A stretch of DNA of 64,000 bases from assembly GCA_024278755.1 (NCBI GenBank), contig JAJRSO010000059.1, positions 1-64,000 of the forward strand. Direction: 5' to 3'. Of this stretch, positions 6,090-60,816 are shown in pieces; within the stretch, counting starts at the first letter, position 1, and each line of letters begins with the position of its first letter. A model generated the notes under the pieces. The model saw nothing but the letters and a program-made list of their open reading frames with translations, did not search any database and was not told the origin of the DNA. This stretch comes from Calditrichota bacterium. Lineage in GTDB: Bacteria; Calditrichota; Calditrichia; Calditrichales; Calditrichaceae. Made by a program: the position numbers and the translations under genes.

Positions 6090-6281
6090 TGTTGGTATTT
6101 ACCGAAAGCGATTCGGCTTTCTGCCGCCGGGAGGTAAAAAAAAGGAACTACGAAAGCATTCGACAGAAAGCAAAGTCCTTTCGACCAAAACAACCGTTTT
6201 TCGTCCCGGCAGTCGAGCGGGATTGTATTTTATTCGGCTAAACGGCGTAAAGACGATATTTTGTTTTTGGCACGCAGATTG

Positions 6282-6313
6282 ATTATAACGGCGGCATTGA
6301 AAATCGTTATAAT
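6282..6313. promoter_or_regulatory. Perfect 9-bp inverted repeat ahead of the DUF4405 gene
   Basis: ATTATAACG (6282-6290) and CGTTATAAT (6305-6313) are exact inverted copies separated by 14 bases, ending just before the ribosome site (ataggag) of the gene at 6330. The layout fits an operator for a dimeric regulator or an mRNA hairpin near the start codon. No regulator can be named. Confidence 0.45.
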
Positions 6314-6329: not shown

Positions 6330-7175
6330 ATGTCTGCCAAAACAAAGAAGAAATTTAACTGGCGCAGTTTTGTCAGTGTGTACATGACTTTTTCCGGAAT
6401 TATCATTGCTGTTTCCGGCGTCATCCTCTACATCGCTCCGGCGGGGCGGATTGCCAAATGGACGCATATTTCCATTCTCGGTCTGGAAAAAGACCAGTGG
6501 CAGTCTCTGCATACCATCTTTACCTTTATTCTGGTTATCGCTGTCGGATTCCATATTTATTACAACTGGAGACCGCTTGTTTCGTATCTGCGTACCCGTT
6601 TTCAGCAAAAGATTACGCTGCGCGGAGAGATGTGGCTTTCGTTGGTCGTAACCGTTTTTATTTTTGCCCTCGTGCTGGTAAACATACCGCCGTTTTCATC
6701 AGTAATGGATTTAGGAGAAAGCATTAAAGATACCTGGGCGACAAAACAAAACGAACCGCCTGTTCCGCATGCGGAAGAGATGACCATAAAAGAACTGGCC
6801 GATGCGGTGAAACGGCAACCGGATCGGCTTATTGCCAATCTGACCTCTAAGGGAATTTCAGCATCGGCAGAAGATCTGGTTAAAGATTTGGCGGAAAAAC
6901 AAAAGGTTACGCCAATGGAATTATTCAACCTGATGCAACTGAAAAAATCAGAAGAGATGCCTAAAGCATCATCTTATCAGGGTATGGGCTACGGCCGCAT
7001 GACATTGGAAGAGGTTTGCCAAAAGATGGGTATTACACCGGAAGATGCGCTGATGAACCTGCAGGAAGCGGGTATCATGGCAGACAAAGACGGAAATTTA
7101 AAAAATCTGGCGTCCGAATATGACAAACTTCCGATTGATTTGGTTAATATTATGAAAGGTATGAAAAGCGAATAG
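6330..7175 (+). CDS. DUF4405 membrane protein with helical C-terminal extension
   Basis: 281 residues. The N-terminal 125 residues hold three membrane helices (about 17-38, 58-80, 100-118) and match DUF4405, a cytochrome-b-like family: the motif DQWQSLHTI is followed by VGFHIYYNW, so His residues that could bind heme sit at both ends of helix 2. A linker leads to a soluble tail (residues 145-281) with short repeated helices, for example TIKELADAVK, ASAEDLVKDLA and TLEEVCQKMG, which resemble one another and may be repeats. The gene has its own leader with an inverted repeat and a strong terminator. A redox role is suggested but not shown. Confidence 0.75.
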   Translation: MSAKTKKKFNWRSFVSVYMTFSGIIIAVSGVILYIAPAGRIAKWTHISILGLEKDQWQSLHTIFTFILVIAVGFHIYYNWRPLVSYLRTRFQQKITLRGEMWLSLVVTVFIFALVLVNIPPFSSVMDLGESIKDTWATKQNEPPVPHAEEMTIKELADAVKRQPDRLIANLTSKGISASAEDLVKDLAEKQKVTPMELFNLMQLKKSEEMPKASSYQGMGYGRMTLEEVCQKMGITPEDALMNLQEAGIMADKDGNLKNLASEYDKLPIDLVNIMKGMKSE

Positions 7176-7196
7176 AATATTTTTCTGCCTAAACAT

Positions 7197-7233
7197 AAAA
7201 ACGGCTGTTTCGATAATGGAAACAGCCGTTTTT
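7197..7233. terminator. Bidirectional intrinsic terminator
   Basis: AAAAACGGCTGTTTC (7197-7211) is followed by a 7-base loop and its exact complement ending in five T residues (7219-7233). With A and T tracts on both sides it can end transcription from the DUF4405 gene on the plus strand and from pfkA on the minus strand. Confidence 0.9.
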
Positions 7234-7259
7234 GATTTAAAACCAGGTATTCTTTTTAC

Positions 7260-8357
7260 CTAATCGCCTAAATTTATCCCGATTCCACGGGCCGTTTTTA
7301 CCAGCTGATCGTCCGGACCAATACGGTTATAGGACGAAATGACTTTTTTAATGGGCAGGCCCACAATGTTGGGATGCTTGTAGGCGACCATTTGACCGAA
7401 GTTACCTTCGAGTACCATTTCAAACGCCTTAACGCCAAACTGGGTTGCCAGAACCCGGTCGTAAGCATTAGGAATTCCACCGCGCTGCAAATGTCCTAAA
7501 ATGGTAACCCGGATATCAGATTCGCAGCCGGCATCTTTAAGCTCTTTTTTAAGGCGTGAAGCGGCGCCGCCAAGATGTTTATGTGCATAACCGATTTCAT
7601 CACTTTCTTCGGCGGCGGCTTCACCGCCCACCGGCATGGCGCCTTCGGCAATTACAATAATAAGAACCCCGCGGTCATTGATAATGCGTTCGTGAATACG
7701 TTCAATAACGCTTTCTACCTTGTAGGGGATTTCCGGAATGAGGCAAACTTCGGCGCCGCCGGCAACCGATGAGTGCAAAGCAATCCAGCCGGCGTCCCGA
7801 CCCATCACTTCGAGAATAAAAATACGATTATGGCTTTCGGCTGTGGTTACCAGTTTATCCACGGCGTCGGTGGCAATTTCAACGGCGGTTTGAAAACCAA
7901 ACGTAAAATCCGTCCCGGCCAGATCGTTGTCGATGGTTTTGGGAACGCCGATGATATTAAGGCCTTTTTCAAACAATTTTTGTGAAATTGCCTGGGAGCC
8001 GTCTCCACCGATATTTATCACCGCTTCGATATTTTGATATTGTAAACGGCGCAGCATTTCATCGGAACGATCTGCGGAGGACCAGGTACCGTCTTTTTCT
8101 TTAATGGGCCAGGCAAAGGGGCCGCCCTTGTTGGTGGTGCCGATGATGGTGCCGCCTTTTACATGAATACCGGACACCTTGTGTTCGTCCAATACCATCA
8201 GTTCCATTGGTTCGCGCAAAACACCGTTAAACGCCTGGTAGGAACCCAGAATCTCCCAATCTCTTTCATGCGAAGCGCGTTTAACTATGCCGCGGATTAC
8301 CGCATTTAAGCCGGGACAATCACCGCCGCCGGTGGCTACTAAAACTCTCTTTTTCAT
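7260..8357 (-). CDS. pfkA: 6-phosphofructokinase, group III (mixed-signature) type
   Basis: 365 residues from the ATG at 8357, chosen over the ATG at 8375 because a GAGGA ribosome site sits 6 bases ahead. It phosphorylates fructose 6-phosphate in glycolysis. The N-terminal loop reads GGGDCPGLNAVIRG. GGDGSQ, with Gly at the position that selects the phosphoryl donor, points to ATP, whereas PKTIDND retains the Lys usual in PPi-dependent enzymes. This Gly plus Lys pair is known from ATP-using enzymes such as those of actinomycetes and trypanosomes. MGRDAGWIA and LGHLQRGG are also present. Donor preference is inferred. Confidence 0.92.
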   Translation of the reverse strand: MKKRVLVATGGGDCPGLNAVIRGIVKRASHERDWEILGSYQAFNGVLREPMELMVLDEHKVSGIHVKGGTIIGTTNKGGPFAWPIKEKDGTWSSADRSDEMLRRLQYQNIEAVINIGGDGSQAISQKLFEKGLNIIGVPKTIDNDLAGTDFTFGFQTAVEIATDAVDKLVTTAESHNRIFILEVMGRDAGWIALHSSVAGGAEVCLIPEIPYKVESVIERIHERIINDRGVLIIVIAEGAMPVGGEAAAEESDEIGYAHKHLGGAASRLKKELKDAGCESDIRVTILGHLQRGGIPNAYDRVLATQFGVKAFEMVLEGNFGQMVAYKHPNIVGLPIKKVISSYNRIGPDDQLVKTARGIGINLGD

Positions 8358-8770
8358 AAAATCCTCGGTTTTCATCAGTTTTTTTATTCGACTTCATAAC
8401 GAAGTATAAAAAATCATCGGATAATCTGCAATATAAATTAGTCGTGAAGAAAAAGAATTGGTTTTATTTAAATAAAAGAGTGAAATTACGGTTTGTAAAC
8501 AGGTCGTAGAAAAGGAACAACTGTTTATAATTCCATAATCGGTATTCGTAAATAAAAAAGAATATAAAAGGACGATTTCAGAAAAAAGTTCTGTGTCGAT
8601 GGAGTGGAGAATGATTTTAAAATAGTTAAACTACGGATAAATACGGATGAAACGCGGAAGAATGAGTTTTGTTAATTAAGTCCATGCGTATCAGTGGTAA
8701 ATTTGTTTTATTGGTTTTAGCTGCTTACGCAAAACAACATGAAACCTAAAAAAAGCATTCGGGAGCAGCG
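8358..8770. other. 413-base intergenic region with no gene found
   Basis: This is an AT-rich stretch between divergent genes that must contain promoters for pfkA and for the NFACT-R gene, though no clear -35/-10 pair stands out. The part at about 8628-8700 (ctacggataaatacggatga, later cgtatcagtggt) resembles the degenerate flanks commonly seen next to GxxExxY genes, without any coding remnant. Confidence 0.4.
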
Positions 8771-45595: not shown

Positions 45596-45753
45596 ATAAT
45601 TGCCGCTTTCGGATAATATGGCATTATTAGGCAGTCTGTTTACCGATATAACGAAATAAAACACCAACTTAATTCACAAAAACAGTTTTATGGCTTGCCA
45701 GAGGATAACTGTAAGTGTAAATTTCGTTTACAGATGTGCATCGGATCTTTTAT

Positions 45754-48700
45754 ATGAAGCTGAAACTATTACTAATAATATCGCTGGCAAATTTACTGAT
45801 TGCAAGCGGAAATAATTTTAAAATGTTACAATCCAATTTAATTGCGGGGCTCATCCCGGATATTGAAGACGGTTACGGCGCAGCCTTGCGTGATTTTAAT
45901 TCCGATGGGTATCCGGATTTGTACCTTGTCTGTTTCCGAAATATGAATCGCTTGCTGGTAAATAACGGGGGCATTGTTCCCTTTATCGATCGTACCATCT
46001 ATTCCGGACTGGGCGGCGATCTTTCATCCCGGGGAAACAGCAGCCTGGAGCTGGGCGCCGGTTGCGCTGATTTTGACAACGATGGCATACCGGATATTTT
46101 TTTAGCCGGATGGGGAAAAACAACCACGCTGTTTCGGGGACTGGGACAGTTCCGTTTCGAAAACACCACCGCCGGTCTGCACATGCAGGGCCTTACAGAC
46201 GCGAATCAGGGCCTGTGGTTAGACGCCGATAACGACGGTTTTTTAGACCTGTTTATTACGGCGGAGCATCATAGCAGCCGCCTGTTTTTAAACAGCAGAA
46301 ACGGTATGTTTCGGGAGCATTCCTGGGCATATGACTTTACGGACTCCGCCACATCGCAGGGGGCAGTGAGCGCCGATTTTGACGGAGACGATGATGCCGA
46401 TATCTATCTTTGCAATTGGGGCCTGCCGGATTATTTATTACTGAATGACGGTACGGGCAGTTTTACCAAATCCTCATTAGCGCTGCCAACATTGACCGAT
46501 TCCACTTCTTCCAACAGCGCAGCGGCTGCCGATATTGATAATGACGGTCTGACGGATCTGCTCATTGCCGGTCATAACGGTTTTGTCTATTTGTATCGTA
46601 ACCAATCCCGCAACGGTATTTTTAGTTTTAAAACCGATACACTGCAGCCGTTTTACCGAATAGGGAACAGTGTTTACGGGATTTTAACAGAAGATTTTAA
46701 CCAGGATGGCTGGCCGGATGTTTTTCTGAGCGTCCGGGAGGGGGATAACCGACTCTATCTGAACGACGGGAATGGCGGGTTTTTAGCAAATTACGATTCC
46801 GACGGCCAAAAAGCGTACAGTACGGGCTGTGCTGCCGGCGATATTGACGGTGACGGCGACTTGGATATTTTTGTGGCCAATAAAGATAAAATTAGCCAGG
46901 TCTATTTGAATCCGGTGAATAATGATCATTTTATAAAGCTCAATCTGGCCGGAGTGGTTTCCAACCGGGATGCCGTGGGCGCAAAAGTGTTTTTATACAG
47001 TATACAGGATTCCCTGCGCCGTCTGGCGGGATTCCGGGAAGTAACGGTAAACACGGGCTATCTTTCCAGCAAAGACCCGCAGGTCTGCTTTGGAACCGGC
47101 TCCGGCCGGTTATTCGAAGCCGAAATCTATTACCCTTCCGGCCGTAAAATCGTTCGTAAAAAACTTTTACCCGGAAAGACCTATCGTATTTCCGAGTACG
47201 GCGCGCTGTTAAAAAGCGGTTATCAGCTGCTCCACCTGCTTCAGTTTCATTCCCGGCGTCTTAGCTCCTGGATTAACGTGTTATTGTTTCTCTTTTTGAT
47301 TTTGCTCCTCTTTTTGTATGTCCGCTTCGGCCTTCGCCGCTATCAGTGGGATGCGCCGTTTGTTGCGGTTCAGTTAATTTTATGGTTCATTATTTCGCTC
47401 GTTGGATTTATCGCCGTAAAAAACCGTGAGGCGCTTGTTGTTTTGGGCCTTATGAACGGCCTCTCGATAACGGCTGTTTTGCTTTCGGCGCTGTATTCCG
47501 AAAAGCAGTTGCGCCTGCGCCGGCGCAGAACGCGTTTTCGGAGCAGGGTGCAGTCTCTAAGCGTGCGCATGATTCATATTCACGACGACGAAACACTGTT
47601 TGGCGATCTGCGCGAAACCATTTTGGAGCACGATGAGATTAGACGGGTATTGATTTTTAAATATGATTCCGATAAAAACAGATTAGTACAAATTGCTCCG
47701 CAAAAAAAGGTATTATCCCTGTCCGGGGGGCAGGAGAACGAATTGCTGCAAAATGATTTTATCGTCAGCGGAGGCAAAAGTTTTAGTTCTGTTTTCGAGG
47801 ATCTTAAAATAAATATTCTGCTTCCCGTAAAACAGGAGGGCGGTTTAACGGCTGTAATTGGTTTATATATGGATAAATACCAAAGCGCCGTTAATCGCGA
47901 AGATTTACATTTACTGTTGCCGCTGGCCAATCAAACGGCCATTGCTGTGGAAAATAACACTTATATCCGGGAAAGCTCAAAGCTGGTTCGTGAGCTGACC
48001 GAAGCCAAAACAAAAGAAAAATATGTAAAAGCGCTGGAAGAGACCAACGCGCAGTTAGATCAAAAAAATAAAGAACTCAATCGTTTGTTTAAAGAGCTTC
48101 AGCAAAAAGAAGGGCAACTGATTCATTCGGAAAAAATGGCTTCGCTGGGGCAGCTTGTGGCCGGCATTTCACACGAACTGAATAATCCGATTAGCTTTAT
48201 ATATGCCAATACCATTGCTCTGGAGACCTATTTAAAAGAACTGAAAGAACTGTGGAATTTACTACCCATAGAGAATACAGATTTAGCGAAACGGTTTAAA
48301 TCGATTGCCGGCGATTTGCAGGAAATTATCCGCGATAACCTAACCGGCAGTAAAAGCGTAAAAGAACTGGTATTAAATTTAAAGAATTTTTCGCGACTGG
48401 ATCAGGCCGAATGGAAAGAAAGCAGACTTTCCCAGGGGATTGAAAGCAGCCTTAAAATTTTAAAACCACAGCTTGGCCCTGAGATAGAAATTATAAAAGA
48501 CTTTCAGATCGATCCGCCAATCTTTTGCAACCCGGGACAACTGAATCAGGTATTTGTAAATCTTTTATCCAACGCCATACAGGCGTTAAACGGAAAAGGC
48601 AGGATTACCGTTTCGATAAAAATCGAGGGACAATGGCTTGTCGTTTCGTTTGCGGATACCGGGGGCGGCATTCCGCCGGAAATTCAAAAAAAGATTTTTG

Positions 48701-48876
48701 ATCCCTTTTTTACCACAAAGGATGTAAACAAAGGTACCGGTCTGGGATTGAGTATTTCGTACTCTATTATTAAAAATCATAACGGGAAACTGACGGTGAG
48801 CAGTATACCGGGAAAAGGCAGTGACTTTAGAATTTTTCTGCCGCGCACAGCGGAAGGTTCCGAAGAGAGAAAGTAA
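45754..48876 (+). CDS. Sensor histidine kinase with exported FG-GAP propeller and ASPIC/UnbV domain
   Basis: 1040 residues from ATG 45754 (GTG 45736 is an alternative). A signal peptide precedes seven FG-GAP/VCBS motifs of the DxDxDGxxD type, for instance DFNSDGYPDLYLV, DFDNDGIPDIFLA, DFDGDDDADIYLC and DIDGDGDLDIFVA, enough for a seven-bladed propeller with Ca sites. An ASPIC/UnbV domain follows (VGAKVFLYS to YYPSGRKIV). Three membrane helices (about 495-590), a GAF-like domain, a coiled coil, HisKA with His807 in GISHELNNPI, and HATPase with DTGGGIPPE and GTGLGLSISYSII complete it. It pairs with the regulator gene starting 40 bases downstream. The receptor end is unusual for a kinase. Confidence 0.92.
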   Translation: MKLKLLLIISLANLLIASGNNFKMLQSNLIAGLIPDIEDGYGAALRDFNSDGYPDLYLVCFRNMNRLLVNNGGIVPFIDRTIYSGLGGDLSSRGNSSLELGAGCADFDNDGIPDIFLAGWGKTTTLFRGLGQFRFENTTAGLHMQGLTDANQGLWLDADNDGFLDLFITAEHHSSRLFLNSRNGMFREHSWAYDFTDSATSQGAVSADFDGDDDADIYLCNWGLPDYLLLNDGTGSFTKSSLALPTLTDSTSSNSAAAADIDNDGLTDLLIAGHNGFVYLYRNQSRNGIFSFKTDTLQPFYRIGNSVYGILTEDFNQDGWPDVFLSVREGDNRLYLNDGNGGFLANYDSDGQKAYSTGCAAGDIDGDGDLDIFVANKDKISQVYLNPVNNDHFIKLNLAGVVSNRDAVGAKVFLYSIQDSLRRLAGFREVTVNTGYLSSKDPQVCFGTGSGRLFEAEIYYPSGRKIVRKKLLPGKTYRISEYGALLKSGYQLLHLLQFHSRRLSSWINVLLFLFLILLLFLYVRFGLRRYQWDAPFVAVQLILWFIISLVGFIAVKNREALVVLGLMNGLSITAVLLSALYSEKQLRLRRRRTRFRSRVQSLSVRMIHIHDDETLFGDLRETILEHDEIRRVLIFKYDSDKNRLVQIAPQKKVLSLSGGQENELLQNDFIVSGGKSFSSVFEDLKINILLPVKQEGGLTAVIGLYMDKYQSAVNREDLHLLLPLANQTAIAVENNTYIRESSKLVRELTEAKTKEKYVKALEETNAQLDQKNKELNRLFKELQQKEGQLIHSEKMASLGQLVAGISHELNNPISFIYANTIALETYLKELKELWNLLPIENTDLAKRFKSIAGDLQEIIRDNLTGSKSVKELVLNLKNFSRLDQAEWKESRLSQGIESSLKILKPQLGPEIEIIKDFQIDPPIFCNPGQLNQVFVNLLSNAIQALNGKGRITVSIKIEGQWLVVSFADTGGGIPPEIQKKIFDPFFTTKDVNKGTGLGLSISYSIIKNHNGKLTVSSIPGKGSDFRIFLPRTAEGSEERK

Positions 48877-48916: not shown

Positions 48917-50362
48917 ATGGAAAAACAAACCATACTGATTGTTGACGACCAGCAGGAAATTTTAAACAGTTTGCAGCGCTTGTTTAATTCGGAATATAAG
49001 GTGCTGACAGCGGCTTCCGGAGCCGAGGCGCTGGAATTGTTAAAACAGAATAGGCCGGCGGTTATCCTTTCGGATCAGCGTATGCCCGAAATGGACGGCG
49101 TGACCTTTCTGAAAAATAGTATTGTTTTGCGGCCGGACGCCGTGCGTCTGATGATTACCGGTTATGCGGATATCGAAGCCACCATTGATGCGGTAAACGA
49201 GGCGAAAATTTACCAGTATATTTCCAAACCGTTCGAACCGCAGGAATTACAAAAGAGTTTAGCCAATGCGGTGGAACGCTTTCTGCTGGTGCAACAAAAT
49301 CGCGCTTTGCAGGAGAACTTAAAACGGGCGAATAAAACATTACAGGTCGAAAAAGAAGAGCTTCAGAAGCAGGTGGAGCAACAGCTTGACCTGGGTAATC
49401 TGATCGGCAGTAGTCCGCCCATGCTGCATATTTTTAAACTGGTTAAAAAAGTGATGAACACGCCGACAACCGTTCTGCTTCTCGGAGACACAGGCACAGG
49501 TAAGGAGATGCTGGCCCGTATCATCCATTTTAACAGTGATAAAAAAGATAAAATGTTTGCCGCTCAAAACTGTGGCGCCATTCCCGACACCCTGCTTCAG
49601 AGTGAATTGTTCGGTCATGTCAGAGGATCGTTTACGGGCGCGGTGGCGGATAAAAAAGGCCTGTTCGAGACCGCCGACGGTGGAACGGTTTTTCTAGATG
49701 AAATCGGAGACACTTCGCCCGCTTTGCAACTGAATTTATTGCGTGTTTTACAGGAAGGCGAAATAAAACCGGTAGGTTCATCCACGGTAAAAAAGGTAGA
49801 TGTGCGCGTAATCGCGGCCACCAATAAAAACCTGCAGGAAGAAGTGAAGGCGGGACGTTTTAGAGAAGATTTGTTTTATCGTCTGAGTGTTTTTCCCATC
49901 TATCTTCCTCCGTTGCATGAACGGCGTCAGGATATTCCGGAACTGATTCGTTATTTTATACACAAATACGCCCGGCGTATCGGGAAAAACATCACAGGGA
50001 TAAGTAAGCAGGCCGAAGCAATGTTGGTGCGCGCGCAGTATCCCGGCAATATCCGTGAACTGGAAAATGAGATTGAACGACTGGTTACCCTGGCTGACGA
50101 AAACAGCGAAATAGAGGAAACCAGCCTGTCTCCGCGTTTTTTGGAACTATCTCTGCCTGAAATTAGTTTTCAGGAAGAGGGATTGAATTTTAAAAAAGCG
50201 TGTGCCCGTCTGGAAAAAACTCTGATTGTTCAGGCGCTGCAAATGACCGGAGGGAATATTTTACGGGCCGCGGAAGAACTTGGTTTAAGCAGAGCCGGGC
50301 TTCATAAAATGTTAAAGCGACACGAAATTCATCCGGGAGAATTTAAAAAGCAGCTTTTTTAA
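48917..50362 (+). CDS. Sigma-54-dependent response regulator (NtrC family)
   Basis: 481 residues. Receiver domain (1-120) with VDDQQE and the phospho-acceptor in VILSDQRMPEMDG, AAA+ domain (about 155-390) with Walker A GDTGTGKE, the sigma-54 contact loop GSFTGAVADKKG (Ser variant of GAFTGA), Walker B GGTVFLDEIGD and arginine fingers FREDLFYRL. A Fis-type helix-turn-helix ends it (ILRAAEELGLSRAGLHKML). Such proteins bind upstream and activate -24/-12 promoters; one lies 120 bases after its stop. It probably receives phosphate from the preceding kinase. Confidence 0.95.
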   Translation: MEKQTILIVDDQQEILNSLQRLFNSEYKVLTAASGAEALELLKQNRPAVILSDQRMPEMDGVTFLKNSIVLRPDAVRLMITGYADIEATIDAVNEAKIYQYISKPFEPQELQKSLANAVERFLLVQQNRALQENLKRANKTLQVEKEELQKQVEQQLDLGNLIGSSPPMLHIFKLVKKVMNTPTTVLLLGDTGTGKEMLARIIHFNSDKKDKMFAAQNCGAIPDTLLQSELFGHVRGSFTGAVADKKGLFETADGGTVFLDEIGDTSPALQLNLLRVLQEGEIKPVGSSTVKKVDVRVIAATNKNLQEEVKAGRFREDLFYRLSVFPIYLPPLHERRQDIPELIRYFIHKYARRIGKNITGISKQAEAMLVRAQYPGNIRELENEIERLVTLADENSEIEETSLSPRFLELSLPEISFQEEGLNFKKACARLEKTLIVQALQMTGGNILRAAEELGLSRAGLHKMLKRHEIHPGEFKKQLF

Positions 50363-50379: not shown

Positions 50380-50416
50380 ACTGTAAAAACTGTAGCCATA
50401 AAAAAGATGTACTGTA
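50380..50416 (+). promoter_or_regulatory. Three direct ACTGTA repeats, possible activator site
   Basis: ACTGTA occurs at 50380-50385, 50389-50394 and 50411-50416, about 70-100 bases ahead of the -24 element. That is the usual distance for binding of an NtrC-type activator, but the repeats are short and direct rather than palindromic. Confidence 0.3.
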
Positions 50417-50480
50417 AACGAAAGAGTCATTGTTTTGTGAAAAGGTGAAATAAAAACCGGAAATAGCGTATTTTGACCTT

Positions 50481-50496
50481 TGGTACACGGTTTGCA
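50481..50496 (+). promoter_or_regulatory. Sigma-54 (-24/-12) promoter
   Basis: TGGTACACGGTTTGCA matches the TGGCACG-N4-TTGCW consensus with correct 16-base spacing, including the GG and GC dinucleotides. Two bases of the -24 half differ. Transcription would start near 50507, about 22 bases before the ATG at 50529. Confidence 0.8.
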
Positions 50497-50528
50497 ATAA
50501 CCGAAGAAAAAGTTTCAGGAGTAGTAAA

Positions 50529-51533
50529 ATGAAAAAATATATGTATACTCGTTTGATTTTCAGTTTTTTGTTCATCGCCTTTTTTGTTACCTCCTGCTAT
50601 ACGCAGTTGGCGGTGGTAAAACCGAAAAGGGTTTATGTGTACGAAAGAACGGTGGAACAGGAAGAACCGGCAGACACGGTTTATTATGAAGAGGATGAAG
50701 AACCGGCATCAGATGCTTATGTCGATGTGGATAATTATTACGGTTATCCGCCGCCGGCAACCTGGCGCAGCCATTATTACGATCCCTATTATTGGGACAG
50801 CTTTTACTGGGATGATTATTACTATTCTTCCTGGAGTTATCCATATAATTACTACCGTTTTGATTATTTCTGGCACCGTCCGGCGTTTGTAATATATTAT
50901 CCCTGGTATAACGATTACTACTATGGATACGGTTATTATAACGAAGGCAGGAGAGTGGCGTATAAACCGCGGCATTTTACCCGGGGTGGAAGCCTGTTAA
51001 AAACGGGTAGCAGGCATATTGCTTCCAGCAGCCGCTCGGTATCTAACGTTTCGGGCCGAAATAGTGCTTCAAGGCATACTGTTACGGACAGGGCGCCCGA
51101 CATTCGGCAGACCGATGATATCCGGGTTGTCAGAACAGGGGCCGGACGCTCTTCCGCAGGAACCAGTATTTCTAAAAAGAGTGTTAGAAAAAGCGGGAAA
51201 AGAATTGTACGAAGCTCGAAAGCACACAAAAGCGGCCGTAAAATTTACCGGAAAAGCCGGTCTGTGAAAAAACGGGATACCGGAAAAACAAAAGCCCGAT
51301 CCGGTCGTCCGCGCACCGTGCGTAAGGGGAGCGCCACTAAAAGCCGCTCTTCCGAAACGACAACGAAAAGTCCACGCAGCCGTTCGGATAATGCCGGTAC
51401 TTCCTATTCCGGCAGCAGTCGCACTCGTAGCTCCTCTTCGGTGAGTAAAAGTTCCGGTTCGGGGCGTTCTTCTTCATCCTCGCGTTCGGGAAGTTCACGC
51501 AGTCACTCGTCGGGACGGTCTAAAAGAAGATAG
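50529..51533 (+). CDS. Tyr/Trp-rich lipoprotein with Ser/Arg/Lys-rich low-complexity tail
   Basis: 334 residues, preceded by aggag. The lipobox is VTSC with Cys23. After an acidic linker, about residues 68-140 are packed with Tyr, Trp and Asp (YYDPYYWDSFYWDDYYYSSW is part of it). From about 150 to the end the protein is Ser, Arg, Lys and Gly rich, strongly basic and repetitive (for example SGSGRSSSSSRSGSSRSHSS). No enzyme domain is seen. The two halves have opposite character, so it might bind polyanions of the surface or self-associate. It is the first gene under the sigma-54 promoter. I do not recognise a family. Confidence 0.8.
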   Translation: MKKYMYTRLIFSFLFIAFFVTSCYTQLAVVKPKRVYVYERTVEQEEPADTVYYEEDEEPASDAYVDVDNYYGYPPPATWRSHYYDPYYWDSFYWDDYYYSSWSYPYNYYRFDYFWHRPAFVIYYPWYNDYYYGYGYYNEGRRVAYKPRHFTRGGSLLKTGSRHIASSSRSVSNVSGRNSASRHTVTDRAPDIRQTDDIRVVRTGAGRSSAGTSISKKSVRKSGKRIVRSSKAHKSGRKIYRKSRSVKKRDTGKTKARSGRPRTVRKGSATKSRSSETTTKSPRSRSDNAGTSYSGSSRTRSSSSVSKSSGSGRSSSSSRSGSSRSHSSGRSKRR

Positions 51534-51592: not shown

Positions 51593-53116
51593 ATGAAAAT
51601 TATAAAAACAAGTATTTTTTTATTATTGCTAACCTCTCTGTCTTTTGCGCAATCCGCGGAAGAGGCCGTAGATCTACTCGACAATCAAACAGGCGCTGGT
51701 ATCCGTGCCGCCGGTTTGGGGAATGCCTATACCGGTGTGGCGGATGATTATTCGGCCATTTACTGGAATCCCGCCGGTCTGGCGCAGATAAAGATGAACG
51801 AGGTTTCCATAGCCCTGTCCAACTTAAATTATAAAAGCGCAGCAGACTATCTGGGGAATTCTGCTTCGAACAGCAGAACCTATACTAAACTTCATAATTT
51901 TGGTCTGGTATATCCGTTTGAAGTGGCCCGTGGCAGCCTGGTAATGGCGCTTGGTTTTCAGCGTATTAAAAGTCTGGATAGCTATCTCGGGTTTTCCGGT
52001 TACCTGCCCGGGACGCAGGGAGACAGCCTGGCTTTTGATGTTATCAATGATAATCAATTTGATTACGGTCTGCTGGAATTTGACCGGGATATTCAACAGC
52101 AAAAATCAGTCTCATCGGAAGGAAGTCTAAACCAATGGTCGTTTGGAATGGCTATTGATTTGTCGCCTTCATTTTCCGGCGGTTTTACGCTAAGTATGCT
52201 AAGTGGCGGCAGCGATTATCTTTCCCGTTATCAGCAGGATGACAGCAACGATTTAAATAACTATTCTATCCGGGATGCAAACGATAATGAAATAGAAGTT
52301 TTTGATTTTAAATACTACGATGTGACCCAAAAAATTAAAAGCGATTACAGTGGATTTGAGGCAAAATTCGGCGGACTTTTTCGTTTTGGTGAAAATTTAA
52401 GACTGGGCACTTCCATTACTATGCCTATGACGATTCGTGTAAACGAGGTTTGGAGTGTTTCCGATGAGCTGGCTTACGATATTCATGTACTTAATGATGG
52501 CGTTTATTCATACAGCGGATCTACGGAAGATCCGTATAATGACAACGCCTATATGGGCTGGGTTCTAAACAGCCATGACCAGGCGGTGGATTTAAACGAA
52601 GAGGGCAGTTTTGAATACAATATTAAAGTGCCGTTTAAATTCAGTGGCGGCGTGTCCTATAAAAATTCCCTGTTGCTATTAGCGGCTTCGGCGGAATATA
52701 CGGATTGGTCGCAGTTGCGCTACGAAATGCCCGATGATGGTGACAGCGAAGACTATGCAGCCTTGCTGGATCAGAATGAAGTATTTGCCGAAAAATTTCG
52801 TCCCGTTCTTTCCTATGGCGCCGGCGCCGAAGTAAACCTGTTCCAAAATACATTGTCCCTGCGCGGAGGCTATCGCTTTGTGCCGTCTCCGTTTAAAGAC
52901 AGCAATGTTGGTTTTGATAAAACCATTTATTCTGCCGGCCTGGGAATGCGGGTGGATGAATCGACGGTTCTGGAAGTTTCATACACATACGGCTCATACG
53001 ATCGTAAAGCCTATTATGCGTACGATTGGGATGAATATGGTGAAATAGCGCCGATGCAGACTGCGGAAGAACATACGTCTCAAAGACTTATGGCCGGCTT
53101 AAAGCTGATATTTTAA
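51593..53116 (+). CDS. Outer-membrane protein, FadL/PorV-like (OmpP1/TodX family)
   Basis: 507 residues with a signal peptide (MKIIKTSIFLLLLTSLSFAQ). The N-terminal motif AGLGNAYTGVADDYSAIYWNPAGLAQI is the family hallmark; the rest alternates like a beta barrel and ends in an aromatic (LKLIF). FadL relatives take up hydrophobic compounds, PorV relatives act in type IX export. It starts 59 bases after the Tyr-rich lipoprotein gene with no terminator between, so it may be read from the same sigma-54 promoter. Confidence 0.87.
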   Translation: MKIIKTSIFLLLLTSLSFAQSAEEAVDLLDNQTGAGIRAAGLGNAYTGVADDYSAIYWNPAGLAQIKMNEVSIALSNLNYKSAADYLGNSASNSRTYTKLHNFGLVYPFEVARGSLVMALGFQRIKSLDSYLGFSGYLPGTQGDSLAFDVINDNQFDYGLLEFDRDIQQQKSVSSEGSLNQWSFGMAIDLSPSFSGGFTLSMLSGGSDYLSRYQQDDSNDLNNYSIRDANDNEIEVFDFKYYDVTQKIKSDYSGFEAKFGGLFRFGENLRLGTSITMPMTIRVNEVWSVSDELAYDIHVLNDGVYSYSGSTEDPYNDNAYMGWVLNSHDQAVDLNEEGSFEYNIKVPFKFSGGVSYKNSLLLLAASAEYTDWSQLRYEMPDDGDSEDYAALLDQNEVFAEKFRPVLSYGAGAEVNLFQNTLSLRGGYRFVPSPFKDSNVGFDKTIYSAGLGMRVDESTVLEVSYTYGSYDRKAYYAYDWDEYGEIAPMQTAEEHTSQRLMAGLKLIF

Positions 53117-53183: not shown

Positions 53184-53725
53184 ATGGTTCTGCATATCAG
53201 AGTTTCCATACTTTTAATATTTCTTCTTTTACTTATGTTTTCCTGCGAAAGTTTAAATGATGCGGTTAACGCAGAGCCGGATACAAAATACTACAATGGA
53301 GAATATGAAGTTGATGTCAACGAGGACGGTTTGTTAGATTTAAAAATGGATGTCCGGTTTTTTGTTTTTGGCGATCGTAATTTAACTTCCTTCTATATTA
53401 AACCGTTGAATGGAATACAATTTTACTGTGAAGCAGATCAGAAACCATATATCTTTTCGAAATACGACACGATTAATTTTTATCCGGTCAGCCGCATTTT
53501 TGGAACAACGAAACAATAAATATTATGTACTGCGATTATTACCGTAAAAACTGGCGCGGAAACTGGGCCGGGAAAACCGGATATCTTGGGCTAAAACTTG
53601 GTGCGGATACTTCTGCAACCTGCGCCTGGATAAATATTACAGCTGATACTTTAGATGAATGTAACATAGTTTTCAATTTTTCAAGAATTCAAAATATTCC
53701 ACGAACAGATTTTCTCATTGAATAG
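53184..53725 (+). pseudogene. Small lipoprotein gene broken by a one-base frameshift
   Basis: The first part (53184-53519) has a lipobox LLMFSC and about 80 further residues, then runs into TAA after a T5 run at 53497-53501. One more T would give SRIFWNNETINIM and continue in frame through the second part (53525-53725), ending at 53723-53725, for a protein of about 180 residues. No stop interrupts the restored frame. The sequence is exported and lipid anchored; no family is recognised. Homopolymer error in sequencing is as likely as a real mutation. Confidence 0.65.
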
Positions 53726-53869: not shown

Positions 53870-54481
53870 ATGAAACGTTCTTTTATTGCAGCAGTGGTTA
53901 TTTTATTTCTTTTAAGCGGATGTCTTAGCTTTAAAGCAATCGAATACCGGATTACCTTTGATAAAAAATTTGAAATCGGTAAAATAGTAATTACGTACGA
54001 AAATATTGGAAGTGACAAATTTGTCTCTGTAAAAACAGATACCGCAATGAGCTCCGTAGAAAAGCAGGAAATTCTGCAGGATCGCCATGATGATTTTATC
54101 GATCTGGTGCACATGACACAGGATGACGAACAATTATTGAATGGAATAAAGCAGGGTATCTATTTTAAAAAACGTTATTTATTTGAAAAAGACAATGCAT
54201 TGAATGGCCGCTACGAGGGGATTTTTACCAATCTCAGGTTTGACAACAAAGAAGAATCCTTACGCATTTTAAAAGACGAGATATTTTTAACGTTGAAAAA
54301 AGACGAAGATATCGAACGGATAGAGACAAATGGTCAATTAAATCAAACCGAAAATATTATTACCATTAGCTGGCCCAAAACCGAAAAGACGATTTATTGG
54401 CGGCAGATTTTAAAAGAAAATTCAGAAACCGTTTCATTACTGGATGAATACCGGCAATGGAAAACAAAAAAGAAACTCTGA
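53870..54481 (+). CDS. Hypothetical lipoprotein
   Basis: 203 residues with lipobox LLSGC (Cys18). The rest is a soluble alpha-beta protein with charged helices (KQEILQDRHDDFIDLVHM) and a closing ITISWPKTEKTIYWRQIL. No known family. It stops at 54481, only 14 bases before the left end of the AT-rich cassette. The terminator now at 60025-60057 may once have ended this gene's transcript. Confidence 0.75.
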   Translation: MKRSFIAAVVILFLLSGCLSFKAIEYRITFDKKFEIGKIVITYENIGSDKFVSVKTDTAMSSVEKQEILQDRHDDFIDLVHMTQDDEQLLNGIKQGIYFKKRYLFEKDNALNGRYEGIFTNLRFDNKEESLRILKDEIFLTLKKDEDIERIETNGQLNQTENIITISWPKTEKTIYWRQILKENSETVSLLDEYRQWKTKKKL

Positions 54482-54494
54482 TAATTATCGGAGC

Positions 54495-54508
54495 GTTGTG
54501 GGCAATGC
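54495..54508. repeat. Left boundary repeat of the defence cassette
   Basis: GTTGTGGGCAATGC matches, at 12 of 14 bases, the reverse complement of 59871-59884 at the other end. Base composition falls sharply to AT-rich after this point. If the ends were joined, this sequence would form the outer right arm of the palindrome at 59871-60004. Confidence 0.6.
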
Positions 54509-54527
54509 AGAGAAAGTACAGCAATTT

Positions 54528-55622
54528 ATGAGTAAAGAATTAACAAAAAATATTGCATTTAAAGAATTACAAGGGCTCTTTAATGACAAGCCATTTGTTT
54601 TGTTCGGGACTGGAATGTCTATTGCCGTTAACGATATATTTGGAATGAATGCATTGAAAGAAAATTTGTTAAAAGAAATAACACAATATTCATTAAGCAA
54701 ATCTCAAAAAGAAGAATGGAGTAGACTGGAGGGCTCTTTAGCAAATGACAGCGAATTTGAGTCGGCCATGAATAATATTAAAGACAATCAATTAATAACT
54801 TTTATTGTTGAACAAACCGGGAAATTCATTGCCAAACAAGATTTTATCTATTCCCAAAAAATTTTGACCGGTGAAATTATTTGGCCGGCATCTACTTTAT
54901 TTAAGAAGTTAGTTGAAGGATTGCCTGGAACTGATAGGGAATTACATGTGGCGACTCCAAATTATGATTTGCTTGCAGAAAGCGCATTTTTCAAAAACGG
55001 AATACCTTATAACAATGGTTTTTTCGGCAGTTTGTATGGAAGTCTTGACTGGGAACAAAGTAAAAGAGCAATAACTTATGCTGATAAAACAGTAGTTGGG
55101 AAAAAACAAAAAACCGTGATACGAGAAAAAAAACATATTGCTTTTTACAAAGTTCATGGTTCCTTAAATCTGTTTTTACTTAATGATAACTTAATTGAAA
55201 ACAATTCGTGGGTTTATAATAAACCAAAAGGAATTGAAAGATTGATAATTACACCCGGCATATCAAAATATGAGAAACTACACAAATATAGAAGCGAACT
55301 ATTGGGGAAATATGACAATGCTATCGAAAAACACAATTTTTTTCTTTTTCTTGGTTTCGGGTTTAATAATAACCAGCTCAATACAAATGCTATATTAGAT
55401 AAATTAAAAAATAAAAATAGTAACGGTTTAATAATTACAAGAAATTCAAACAGTAAAATTGAAAATCTTTTAAAAGAATCTAAAAACTTATGGTTAATAT
55501 GTTCTACAAATGATAAAAACGGTACGATAATAAAAAACAGCAAATTTTCAAAAAAGTTAATTTTAAATAATAATAAACTCTGGGAAATAGATATTTTTAC
55601 AAGAACAGTTTTAGGAGAATGA
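54528..55622 (+). CDS. SIR2-domain protein, probable NADase of a defence system
   Basis: 364 residues from ATG 54528; the in-frame extension to 54444 lies over the lipoprotein gene and outside the cassette. The nucleotide motif is FGTGMS (26-31), TPNYD has the catalytic Asn145, KVHGS the catalytic His210, and FLGFGFNNNQL closes the fold. This is the defence-type SIR2 (NAD-degrading) pattern, not the zinc-containing deacetylase: no Cys quartet is present. In SIR2-HerA (Nezha) systems the pair depletes NAD on phage infection. Its stop overlaps the HerA leader. Confidence 0.87.
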   Translation: MSKELTKNIAFKELQGLFNDKPFVLFGTGMSIAVNDIFGMNALKENLLKEITQYSLSKSQKEEWSRLEGSLANDSEFESAMNNIKDNQLITFIVEQTGKFIAKQDFIYSQKILTGEIIWPASTLFKKLVEGLPGTDRELHVATPNYDLLAESAFFKNGIPYNNGFFGSLYGSLDWEQSKRAITYADKTVVGKKQKTVIREKKHIAFYKVHGSLNLFLLNDNLIENNSWVYNKPKGIERLIITPGISKYEKLHKYRSELLGKYDNAIEKHNFFLFLGFGFNNNQLNTNAILDKLKNKNSNGLIITRNSNSKIENLLKESKNLWLICSTNDKNGTIIKNSKFSKKLILNNNKLWEIDIFTRTVLGE

Positions 55623-55624
55623 TT

Positions 55625-57358
55625 ATGGCAAAATTTGATTTTGATGCTTCTGATAAATTAGGCACAGTTAGAGAAGTTGACACGAGAAAAGTGTCGGTTC
55701 TTGTAGAAAATGATGATGACTTACGAAAAGCAAGAGTTGGACAGTTAGTTGCAATAGATTTATCCGGTGCAACTGATAACTGGTTAATTGCAATTATTGA
55801 AAAGGTAATTAGATTTGTTGGTCAACAAGAAACCCGAGATGACACTGGCAATGAGGTAATTGATGAAACAGATAAAGAACTTGTTGTAAATAATGTAAAA
55901 GTAACATTAGTTGGAACTTTTGGATGGGATGCTGTCAAAAGCAAGTCAACATTTACCCGCTCGATTGTACAAGTCCCGGGAATTACTGATGAATGTTTTA
56001 TTTTGAAAGGCAAGTCTTTAGAAGTTTTTATGAATGTTTTATCTGAGACTTCTCTAAAAGAAAAATATTCTTTGGAACTGGGGAAATATGTTTTGGATGA
56101 AACAGCTAAGGCTTTTCTTGATGGAAACAAGTTTTTTCAACGTCACGCTGCAATTTTAGGAAGTACTGGTTCGGGTAAATCTTGGACGGTTGCTTCAATT
56201 TTGGAACAAGCGGCTAAATTACCAACCTCCAACCTTATTGTGTTTGATTTACACGGGGAATATTCTGAACTTTCATATGCTCGTCATTTGAGGATACCTG
56301 GGCCAGATGAACTTGATAATGCTTCTAATGAGCTTTTATATCTGCCCTATTGGCTACTGAATGCTGAAGAAATGCAGTCGATGTTTATAGACCGTTCTGA
56401 ATTTAGTGCACACAATCAAGTAATGGCATTTCAAGATGCTGTGATTGCAGAAAAAAAAGAGCTACTAAAATCATTGAATAAGAAAGATGTATTAAATGCT
56501 TTTACAATTGATAGTCCTGTACCGTTTTCTTTGAATAACGTTATAGAACGATTGAGGAGTTTAAATGAAGAAATGGTACAAGGGGCACGTGGACTAAAAC
56601 AAGGTCAATTTTTCGGTCAATTTAGTCGACTACTAACGAGATTAAACAGTAAATTGAGTGATAAAAGATATGGGTTCTTATTTAGTGCTCCTGAAAAAGA
56701 ACATCAATATGACTCTATGTATAGAATAGTTGCCAAATTGATGGATTTTTCAATAGAAAAAACACAAATTAAGGTAATTGATTTTTCAGAAGTTCCAAGC
56801 GATATTTTACCAACTATTGTTGGGTTAGTGGCAAGAATTATTTATCAAATTCAATTTTGGACAGAAAGTAACAAAAGACATCCATTAGCACTTATTTGTG
56901 ATGAAGCACATTTATATTTACCCGAAAAGTCCGGTAAAAATCCTGTAGAAATTAGAGCAATTGAAGCATTTGAAAGAATAGCTAAAGAAGGTCGTAAATA
57001 TGGTGTTTCTCTTGTTATAATTAGTCAACGGCCATCAGATGTTAGCACTACAATCATAAGTCAATGTAACAATGTGATTGCTTTAAGATTAACCAATGGA
57101 ACCGACAGACAAACCGTTTTTAAACTTATGCCTGAAAGTCTGGAAAGCCTTTTGGAAGTTTTACCGATTATGGATGTTGGAGAAGGACTTGTTGTCGGTG
57201 ACGCTGTTCTTTTACCTAGCAGAATCAAAATACATCCACCTAAAGAAAAGCCGTTAAGTGCGACTATTGATTTTTGGTCAGAATGGTTAAAAGAAAAAGA
57301 AAAAATAGATTTTGAAAAATCCGTTGAAAATATGAGAAAACAAAGAAGGAAAAAATGA
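55625..57358 (+). CDS. HerA-like DUF87 ATPase, partner of the SIR2 protein
   Basis: 577 residues. The ATG at 55625 is preferred to that at 55619 because AGGAG lies at 55613-55617, giving a 7-base gap. A HAS-barrel-like N-terminal part (TVREVDTRKVSVLVEN, GQLVAIDL) precedes the motor: Walker A GSTGSGKS with Lys185, Walker B LICDEAHLY with Asp426 and Glu427, then SQRPSDVSTTIISQCNN. HerA forms hexameric rings and in the two-gene Nezha system builds a complex with SIR2. The end overlaps the next start by 4 bases (ATGA). Confidence 0.93.
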   Translation: MAKFDFDASDKLGTVREVDTRKVSVLVENDDDLRKARVGQLVAIDLSGATDNWLIAIIEKVIRFVGQQETRDDTGNEVIDETDKELVVNNVKVTLVGTFGWDAVKSKSTFTRSIVQVPGITDECFILKGKSLEVFMNVLSETSLKEKYSLELGKYVLDETAKAFLDGNKFFQRHAAILGSTGSGKSWTVASILEQAAKLPTSNLIVFDLHGEYSELSYARHLRIPGPDELDNASNELLYLPYWLLNAEEMQSMFIDRSEFSAHNQVMAFQDAVIAEKKELLKSLNKKDVLNAFTIDSPVPFSLNNVIERLRSLNEEMVQGARGLKQGQFFGQFSRLLTRLNSKLSDKRYGFLFSAPEKEHQYDSMYRIVAKLMDFSIEKTQIKVIDFSEVPSDILPTIVGLVARIIYQIQFWTESNKRHPLALICDEAHLYLPEKSGKNPVEIRAIEAFERIAKEGRKYGVSLVIISQRPSDVSTTIISQCNNVIALRLTNGTDRQTVFKLMPESLESLLEVLPIMDVGEGLVVGDAVLLPSRIKIHPPKEKPLSATIDFWSEWLKEKEKIDFEKSVENMRKQRRKK

Positions 57359-60060: not shown

Positions 60061-60816
60061 CTATTTAATGGACGCCGCCCAGTACTCTCTGCGCATACGG
60101 GCAATTCCTTTAATCGAAATCTCTTTCGGACAAACTGCCTCGCATTCGGCATGATTGGAGCAGGCGCCGAAGCCCTCTTCATCCATTTGCGCCACCATGG
60201 CTTCTACGCGCTTAGCCGCTTCGGGACGTCCCTGCGGAAGTAAGGCAAATTGAGACACTTTAGCGCCAACGAATAAACTGGCCGACGCATTGGGGCATGA
60301 AGCTACACAGGCGCCACAGCCGATACAGGCTGCCATATCCATAGCCTCTTCCGCATCATCGCGGGGGACTAAGGAGGTTCTGGCTTCGGGAACCCCGCCG
60401 GTACGTACGCTGGTGTAACCGCCGGCCGCCATAATACGGTCAAACGCATATTTATCAACGACCAAATCTTTTAAAACCGGAAACGGTTTTGCCCGCCACG
60501 GTTCCATTACGATGGTATCGCCGTCTTTAAAATGGCGCATGCGGATCTCGCAGGTGGTGGAACCGCTTTTCGGTCCGTGTGCGGTGCCGTTGATGACCAT
60601 CCCGCACATTCCGCAGATACCTTCGCGACAGTCGTTGTCGAACTCAATCGGGATTTCATCTTTCAGGATAAGTTCTTCGTTTAATTCATCCAGCATTTCC
60701 AGAAAGGACATATCCGGATTTACGCCTTTTGCTTCATAATCTTTAAAAGCGCCTTTGTCGTCTTTATTTTCCTGACGCCAGACTTTCAGTTTTATATTTA
60801 ACATTTTCTTTTCCAT
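60061..60816 (-). CDS. sdhB: Succinate dehydrogenase/fumarate reductase iron-sulfur subunit
   Basis: 251 residues; the ATG at 60816 follows AGGAGG by 8-9 bases. The [2Fe-2S] motif is [20 protein letters not shown], and the [4Fe-4S]/[3Fe-4S] cysteines are in [15 protein letters not shown] and [15 protein letters not shown]. It passes electrons from FAD in SdhA to the membrane subunit. The order sdhC-sdhA-sdhB and the lack of SdhD match type B (Bacteroides/Bacillus-like) enzymes that can run either way with menaquinone. Confidence 0.95.

Follow-up and report, generated by a model that had tools for sequence, protein, structure and literature searches.

The window analysed here is a 64,000-nucleotide stretch of a Calditrichota bacterium (assembly GCA_024278755.1, contig JAJRSO010000059.1, positions 1 to 64,000 of the forward strand). 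It carries the genes for a sensor histidine kinase and a response regulator, followed by two genes for probable surface proteins and the regulatory elements between them:

45716–45732, no strand: near-perfect palindrome TGTAAATTTCGTTTACA, a probable autoregulation site just 5' of the kinase gene.
45736–48876, plus strand: sensor histidine kinase gene with a likely start at ATG 45754, described from Pfam, its translation, a structural model, and fold and profile searches.
48917–50362, plus strand: gene for an NtrC-family (type Ia) enhancer-binding response regulator of 481 aa, with Pfam domains Response_reg, Sigma54_activat, AAA_lid_14 and HTH_8.
50382–50398, plus strand: UAS1, the distal candidate activator site, a degenerate palindrome TGTAAAAACTGTAGCCA located by matrix ranking of tandem pairs.
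50413–50429, plus strand: UAS2, the proximal candidate activator site, a degenerate palindrome TGTAAACGAAAGAGTCA 31 bases from UAS1.
50480–50496, plus strand: predicted -24/-12 (sigma-54) promoter element TTGGTACACGGTTTGCA, recognised by its sequence, a matrix scan and its conserved position before the YX ATG.
50507–50528, plus strand: predicted transcription start at about 50507, placed from the -12 element, and a 22-base leader with AGGAG at 50517–50521.
50529–51533, plus strand: predicted target gene YX, encoding a tyrosine-rich protein of 334 aa with a lipobox-like TSC and a Ser/Arg-rich tail.
51593–53116, plus strand: gene for an OmpP1/FadL/PorV-like outer-membrane protein of 507 aa, second gene of the probable operon.

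YX is probably a lipoprotein and matches no Pfam or NCBIfam family. The 507-aa porin scores 44.5 bits against Toluene_X (PF03349; cut-off 29.7) and stays below the cut-offs of the PorV/FadL-type NCBIfam models. Further downstream, two ORFs of 111 and 66 aa at 53184–53725 match a single 187-aa ORF in the relative L016 (6237–6800), which reflects either a gene broken by a frame change or an assembly error. The segment 53870–59869, which holds a SIR2 gene (54444–55622), a HerA gene (55619–57358) and ORFs of no known family, is a probable anti-phage island; it sits between the porin gene and sdhB (60061–60816), which lie close together in relatives.

The kinase combines a signal-peptide-like start, an FG-GAP/ASPIC-UnbV (CRTAC1-like) propeller, hydrophobic segments and a HisKA/HATPase core. 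HATPase_c scores above its cut-off, HisKA reaches 26.0 bits, just below the curated 26.9, and an H-box (ISHELNNP) is visible in the translation. Modeling of residues 1–515 from six sequences gives a mean pLDDT of 75.7. Murine CRTAC1 ranks first among solved structures when the modeled sensor is compared by fold, and CRTAC1 is also the closest match in the profile search (E 2.3e-22).

The adjacent regulator has the full type Ia domain set in Pfam, with a receiver, an AAA+ sigma-54 interaction domain and HTH_8. Its sigma-54 contact loop (49625–49642) reads GSFTGA, as in its closest relative, L016; five other aligned relatives have GAFTGA. Of its six closest relatives in named genomes, five come from Calditrichota-titled entries (L016, L017, L018, L020, L021) and one, L019, from a Caldisericaceae-titled entry. 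The genome encodes one RpoN (a single PF04552 match, 200 bits), whose alignment with solved sigma-54 covers almost the full protein. It also has 26 strong sigma-54 activator domains including the neighbor of the site, along with four further weak matches.

The element TTGGTACACGGTTTGCA has GG at 50482–50483 and GC at 50494–50495 with correct spacing, and departs from TGGCACG-N4-TTGCA in two bases (C>T and G>A). It starts 118 bases after the activator stop codon, and the distance from its first base to the YX ATG is 49 bases. Counting the C of the -12 element as position -12 puts the predicted start at about 50507, in agreement with the first-pass annotation. The window was scored on both strands with a hand-set -24/-12 matrix based on the textbook consensus, and TTGGTACACGGTTTGCA is the top match (17.4 of 21.9), with 0.083 equal-or-better matches expected per window from 60 dinucleotide shuffles. 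No sigma-70-like match was found on the plus strand between 50340 and 50560. Whole-genome frequencies were obtained by pattern searches with reversed-pattern controls. The 3.94-Mb genome contains six TGGYACRN4TTGCW sites (two in the control) and 13 TGGYAYN5TTGCA sites (two in the control). The first-pass annotation had called this a near-consensus -24/-12 sequence, which holds, and had named many equal-scoring sites at random positions as the outcome that would speak against it; the pattern counts and the shuffled windows show that such sites are few.

Two of the six strict sites (TGGYACRN4TTGCW) fall within long ORFs. Among the remaining sites, three closely precede a start codon: TTGGTACACGGTTTGCA itself, a site before a dnaK-like ORF, and a site that lies 55 bases 5' of an ORF of 216 aa in the vicinity of a further activator. 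The last one lies between genes, with the closest in-line ORF about 336 bases away. The near-consensus dnaK-side site, TGGCACGTGCCTTGCT (L014 1501–1516; G000:C51:84948–84963), has its first base 67 bases before the ORF; sigma-54-dependent chaperone genes in Bacteroidota are mentioned in PMC12316311.

A search of 40 genomes of the class with a profile (A2) built on the YX N-terminus finds 27 places in 25 genomes, places repeating the named loci L016, L017, L018 and L021 being counted once. In 21 of the 27, the best -24/-12 match starts 47–59 bases before the YX ATG. These 21 are all of the YX places in two families of the order and come from 20 genomes, including the one studied here; G014, of the same order, has no YX. 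The site is absent at that distance from the remaining six YX-like genes, all of them in other families outside the order and most of them also weak matches to YX. TGGYAY-N5-TTG is present at 21/21 sites with TGG, A and TTG invariant, and the flanks hardly align except in the closest pair. By comparison, one match is present in 46 control regions, taken from upstream of the kinase, activator and porin genes at the same loci. The 21 loci are related and therefore do not amount to 21 independent observations. The fixed spacing of TGG-A and TTG before every YX gene of the order lends strong support to the promoter reading made in the first-pass annotation. L017 carries two YX-like genes in tandem (6976–7347 and 7748–8758), each with its own -24/-12 site.

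The porin gene adjoins YX in 19/19 fetched loci of the order, and the kinase and/or an orthologous activator (59–86% identity) precede YX in 15 of them. L152, a locus from another family that lacks the site, has neither the kinase nor an orthologous activator before YX. An extra gene intervenes between activator and site in many relatives. In L016, L017 and L021, it is a HAD-like gene that separates the activator from the -24/-12 site, which thus goes with YX rather than with the 3' end of the activator. This small HAD gene (L016 2866–3336) resembles the soluble portion of metal P-type ATPases; several relatives have it at this place, and the window contains no match to it. In three loci of genus g2 (L143–L145, from G004, G001 and G002), the kinase/activator pair is found elsewhere in the genome and the site stays with YX. 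The suggested link to the activator is supported, but not on the original ground that the site lies directly downstream of the activator gene. In L147 (G011), the YX promoter is kept, the activator beside YX is only 34% identical, and no palindrome is found at the kinase; a regulator exchange in this genome is possible.

The palindrome in question, TGTAAAC-N3-GTTTACA, was spotted by eye in the 220 bases preceding each of the 21 sites. When 12 or more of the 14 positions must agree, it has 20 matches in 17 of the 21 upstream regions (0.02 expected from shuffles), a count that is not independent because it was made on the regions in which the motif was found. Many of the copies are tandem, 29–33 bases apart. 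In the window, UAS1 and UAS2 are degenerate (10/14 and 9/14 positions) and individually weak, ranking 23 and 43 of 63984, but as a tandem (50382/50413) they rank 2 of 319755 placements when scored with a matrix whose training set left out the window and L133.

The same matrix ranks 45716–45732 first of 63984 in the window. This copy shortly precedes the likely kinase ATG, overlaps a weak sigma-70-like match (9/12), and is the only palindrome with at most one mismatch in its own genome. A regulon search of that genome at up to two mismatches returned 24 places against 18 for the reversed control, so only the single one-mismatch place is informative. A TonB-dependent receptor gene diverges from the 45716–45732 region. 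Within the order, a palindrome (at least 11/14) lies 11–59 bases 5' of the approximate kinase start in 10/10 loci and near the kinase start in three of four further genomes of the order (G011 being the exception), for a total of 13/14 genomes; none was found at the kinase gene in six genomes outside the order. The clearest case is G001, in which YX (4.836 Mb) and the kinase (0.114 Mb) are unlinked: its 5 Mb contain only two palindromes with at most one mismatch, upstream of YX and of the kinase, against none in the reversed control. Eight other genomes are less clear-cut, with two to six such palindromes each and zero to four in the controls.

Sequence, conservation and co-location together make it very probable that 50480–50496 is the sigma-54 (RpoN) promoter of YX and the co-transcribed porin gene, within a circuit of kinase, NtrC-type regulator and palindrome. 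The degenerate UAS copies of the window, the GSFTGA loop, the different activator of G011 and the six YX-like genes that lack the site count against it. In this model, the membrane kinase would sense an envelope-side signal through its periplasmic CRTAC1-like propeller and phosphorylate the regulator encoded beside it, a transfer suggested by the pairing of the two genes. The regulator would then bind the tandem palindromes about 80–120 bases upstream of the start site, loop onto the RpoN-polymerase positioned on the -24/-12 element, and open it using ATP, so that YX and then the porin gene would be transcribed as one operon. Looping and ATP-driven opening of RpoN-polymerase are established chemistry for the NtrC-type class. 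The regulator probably also controls its own kinase/activator operon through the copy at 45716–45732, most likely by repression, because this strong palindrome 5' of the kinase overlaps the sigma-70-like match.

The palindrome may instead be the site of a different, co-controlling regulator, for example of the GntR or CRP type, whose sites it presumably resembles, with the sigma-54 activator using another, unseen site. Its size is common to many dimeric regulators, and its assignment to the activator is one of location only, but the tandem spacing at the usual activator distance, the copy at the activator's operon, and the restriction of the palindrome to those two places in the whole of G001 make this alternative unlikely. 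Tandem sites together with a copy at the regulator's own operon are the typical NtrC-type layout.

It is quite improbable that the promoter is genuine but driven by another of the genome's own activators, with the neighboring regulator acting elsewhere. The 26 strong activator domains offer candidates, both UAS copies of the window are degenerate, and the activator at the neighboring place in G011 is only 34% identical; against this, in almost every genome, the unlinked one included, the palindrome ties YX to the kinase operon, and the window tandem stands near the top of all placements. A chance match beside an ordinary promoter, with the -24/-12 pattern unused, is extremely unlikely: at 0.083 expected matches per window a single occurrence would not be impossible, but the same distance recurs at 21/21 YX genes of the order against 1/46 control regions, and the plus strand lacks a sigma-70-like match.

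The annotation had described both invariant dinucleotides as correct; GG and GC are indeed both present in TTGGTACACGGTTTGCA, but 13 of the 21 orthologous sites have another base, T or A, in place of the C at -12 (C 8, T 9, A 4). Likewise, the description of TTGGTACACGGTTTGCA as the only convincing intergenic site does not hold. A scan of the window with TGGYAY-N5-TTG finds two intergenic sites, 50480–50496 and the following:

6267–6283, intergenic: second likely -24/-12 site TTGGCACGCAGATTGAT.

This site ends 47 bases before ATG 6330 of a gene for a DUF4405 (cytochrome b561-like) membrane protein and escapes any rule that demands GC at -12.

Across eight genomes, YTGGCAYRN4TTGNA has 112 sites against 30 in the reversed control, and N is T in 56, A in 34, C in 14 and G in 8. 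The TGCC version of the pattern has 58 sites, with N as T in 11, A in 23, C in 15 and G in 9; for T against the rest, the two patterns differ with a Fisher P of 7e-5. Replacing TGGC with TGGT gives a small enrichment (54 vs 35). In the genome studied here, 24 stretches beside activator genes contain 12 sites against one in the control, and the ten with an ATG in range have C five times, T four times and A once.

Two further ideas about the -12 position were set aside. Compensation between the two elements (TGGT with TTGC, TGGC with TTGT/A) fits 19 of the 21 YX sites and is not claimed, because it is not borne out beside the genome's own activator genes, where four of ten sites pair TGGC with TTGC. 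That T at -12 is unique to the lineage is unsupported: by hand count, the 24 sites of the outgroup genome G044 (L050, Desulfobacterium-titled) include 9 with T and 7 with C, and therefore the lineage may not be special. In the RpoN alignment, the recognition-helix arginine is retained and the adjacent glutamate is replaced by isoleucine. Nothing about the cause of the relaxed -12 position is drawn from the alignment. As a tentative proposal, to which we give somewhat less than even likelihood, the -12 element in Calditrichota may have shifted away from TTGCA towards TTG(T/A)A, in which case standard scans would miss most sigma-54 promoters of the lineage, with a CRTAC1-type sensor feeding a circuit that controls the surface lipoprotein/porin make-up across the order.

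A partial literature search found no work on sigma-54 regulation in Calditrichota, and a term search of the Caldithrix abyssi genome paper (PMC5317091) returned no word starting with "sigma". For FG-GAP sensor kinases, the same limited search found no paper combining all terms and one review with a single mention.

The circuit itself adds a new case to a familiar class of gene switches. PMC3162934 classes AtoC/ZraR/NtrC-like regulators as type Ia enhancer-binding proteins. The system described here shares with them the receiver, AAA+ and HTH_8 domains, the adjacent kinase gene, and a -24/-12 promoter with upstream tandem sites. It differs in its GSFTGA loop, in its target genes, and in its score against AtoC, its best NCBIfam model, which at 366 bits is far under the cut-off of 714.

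On the sensor side, CRTAC1 (an FG-GAP and ASPIC/UnbV propeller) is the nearest solved structure by both profile and fold, but it is an animal protein, whereas in the present system the module forms the sensing portion of a membrane histidine kinase. CRTAC1 is secreted. The periplasmic domain of BT4663-type hybrid sensors (4a2l/4a2m) is a propeller-like fold match and likewise the periplasmic sensing part of a two-component system; identity over the match is only about 8–10%, and the BT4663-type sensor is a hybrid, one-protein system.

PMC3162934 also links sigma-54 to the bacterial exterior, for example through Rrp2 and lipoproteins in Borrelia. Both systems connect a sigma-54 activator with genes for lipoproteins and outer-membrane proteins, but here direct control of a local operon is proposed. 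An envelope-sensing, surface-adapting YX/porin circuit would fit this theme. Starting from one sequence match, the analysis arrives at a circuit that can be tested, in a phylum that has received little study, with a candidate kinase, regulator, operator, promoter and targets, a predicted transcription start and a putative autoregulatory site. The operator motif, used along with the relaxed -12 rule, may allow further sigma-54 targets in these bacteria to be predicted, as the site at 6267–6283 illustrates.
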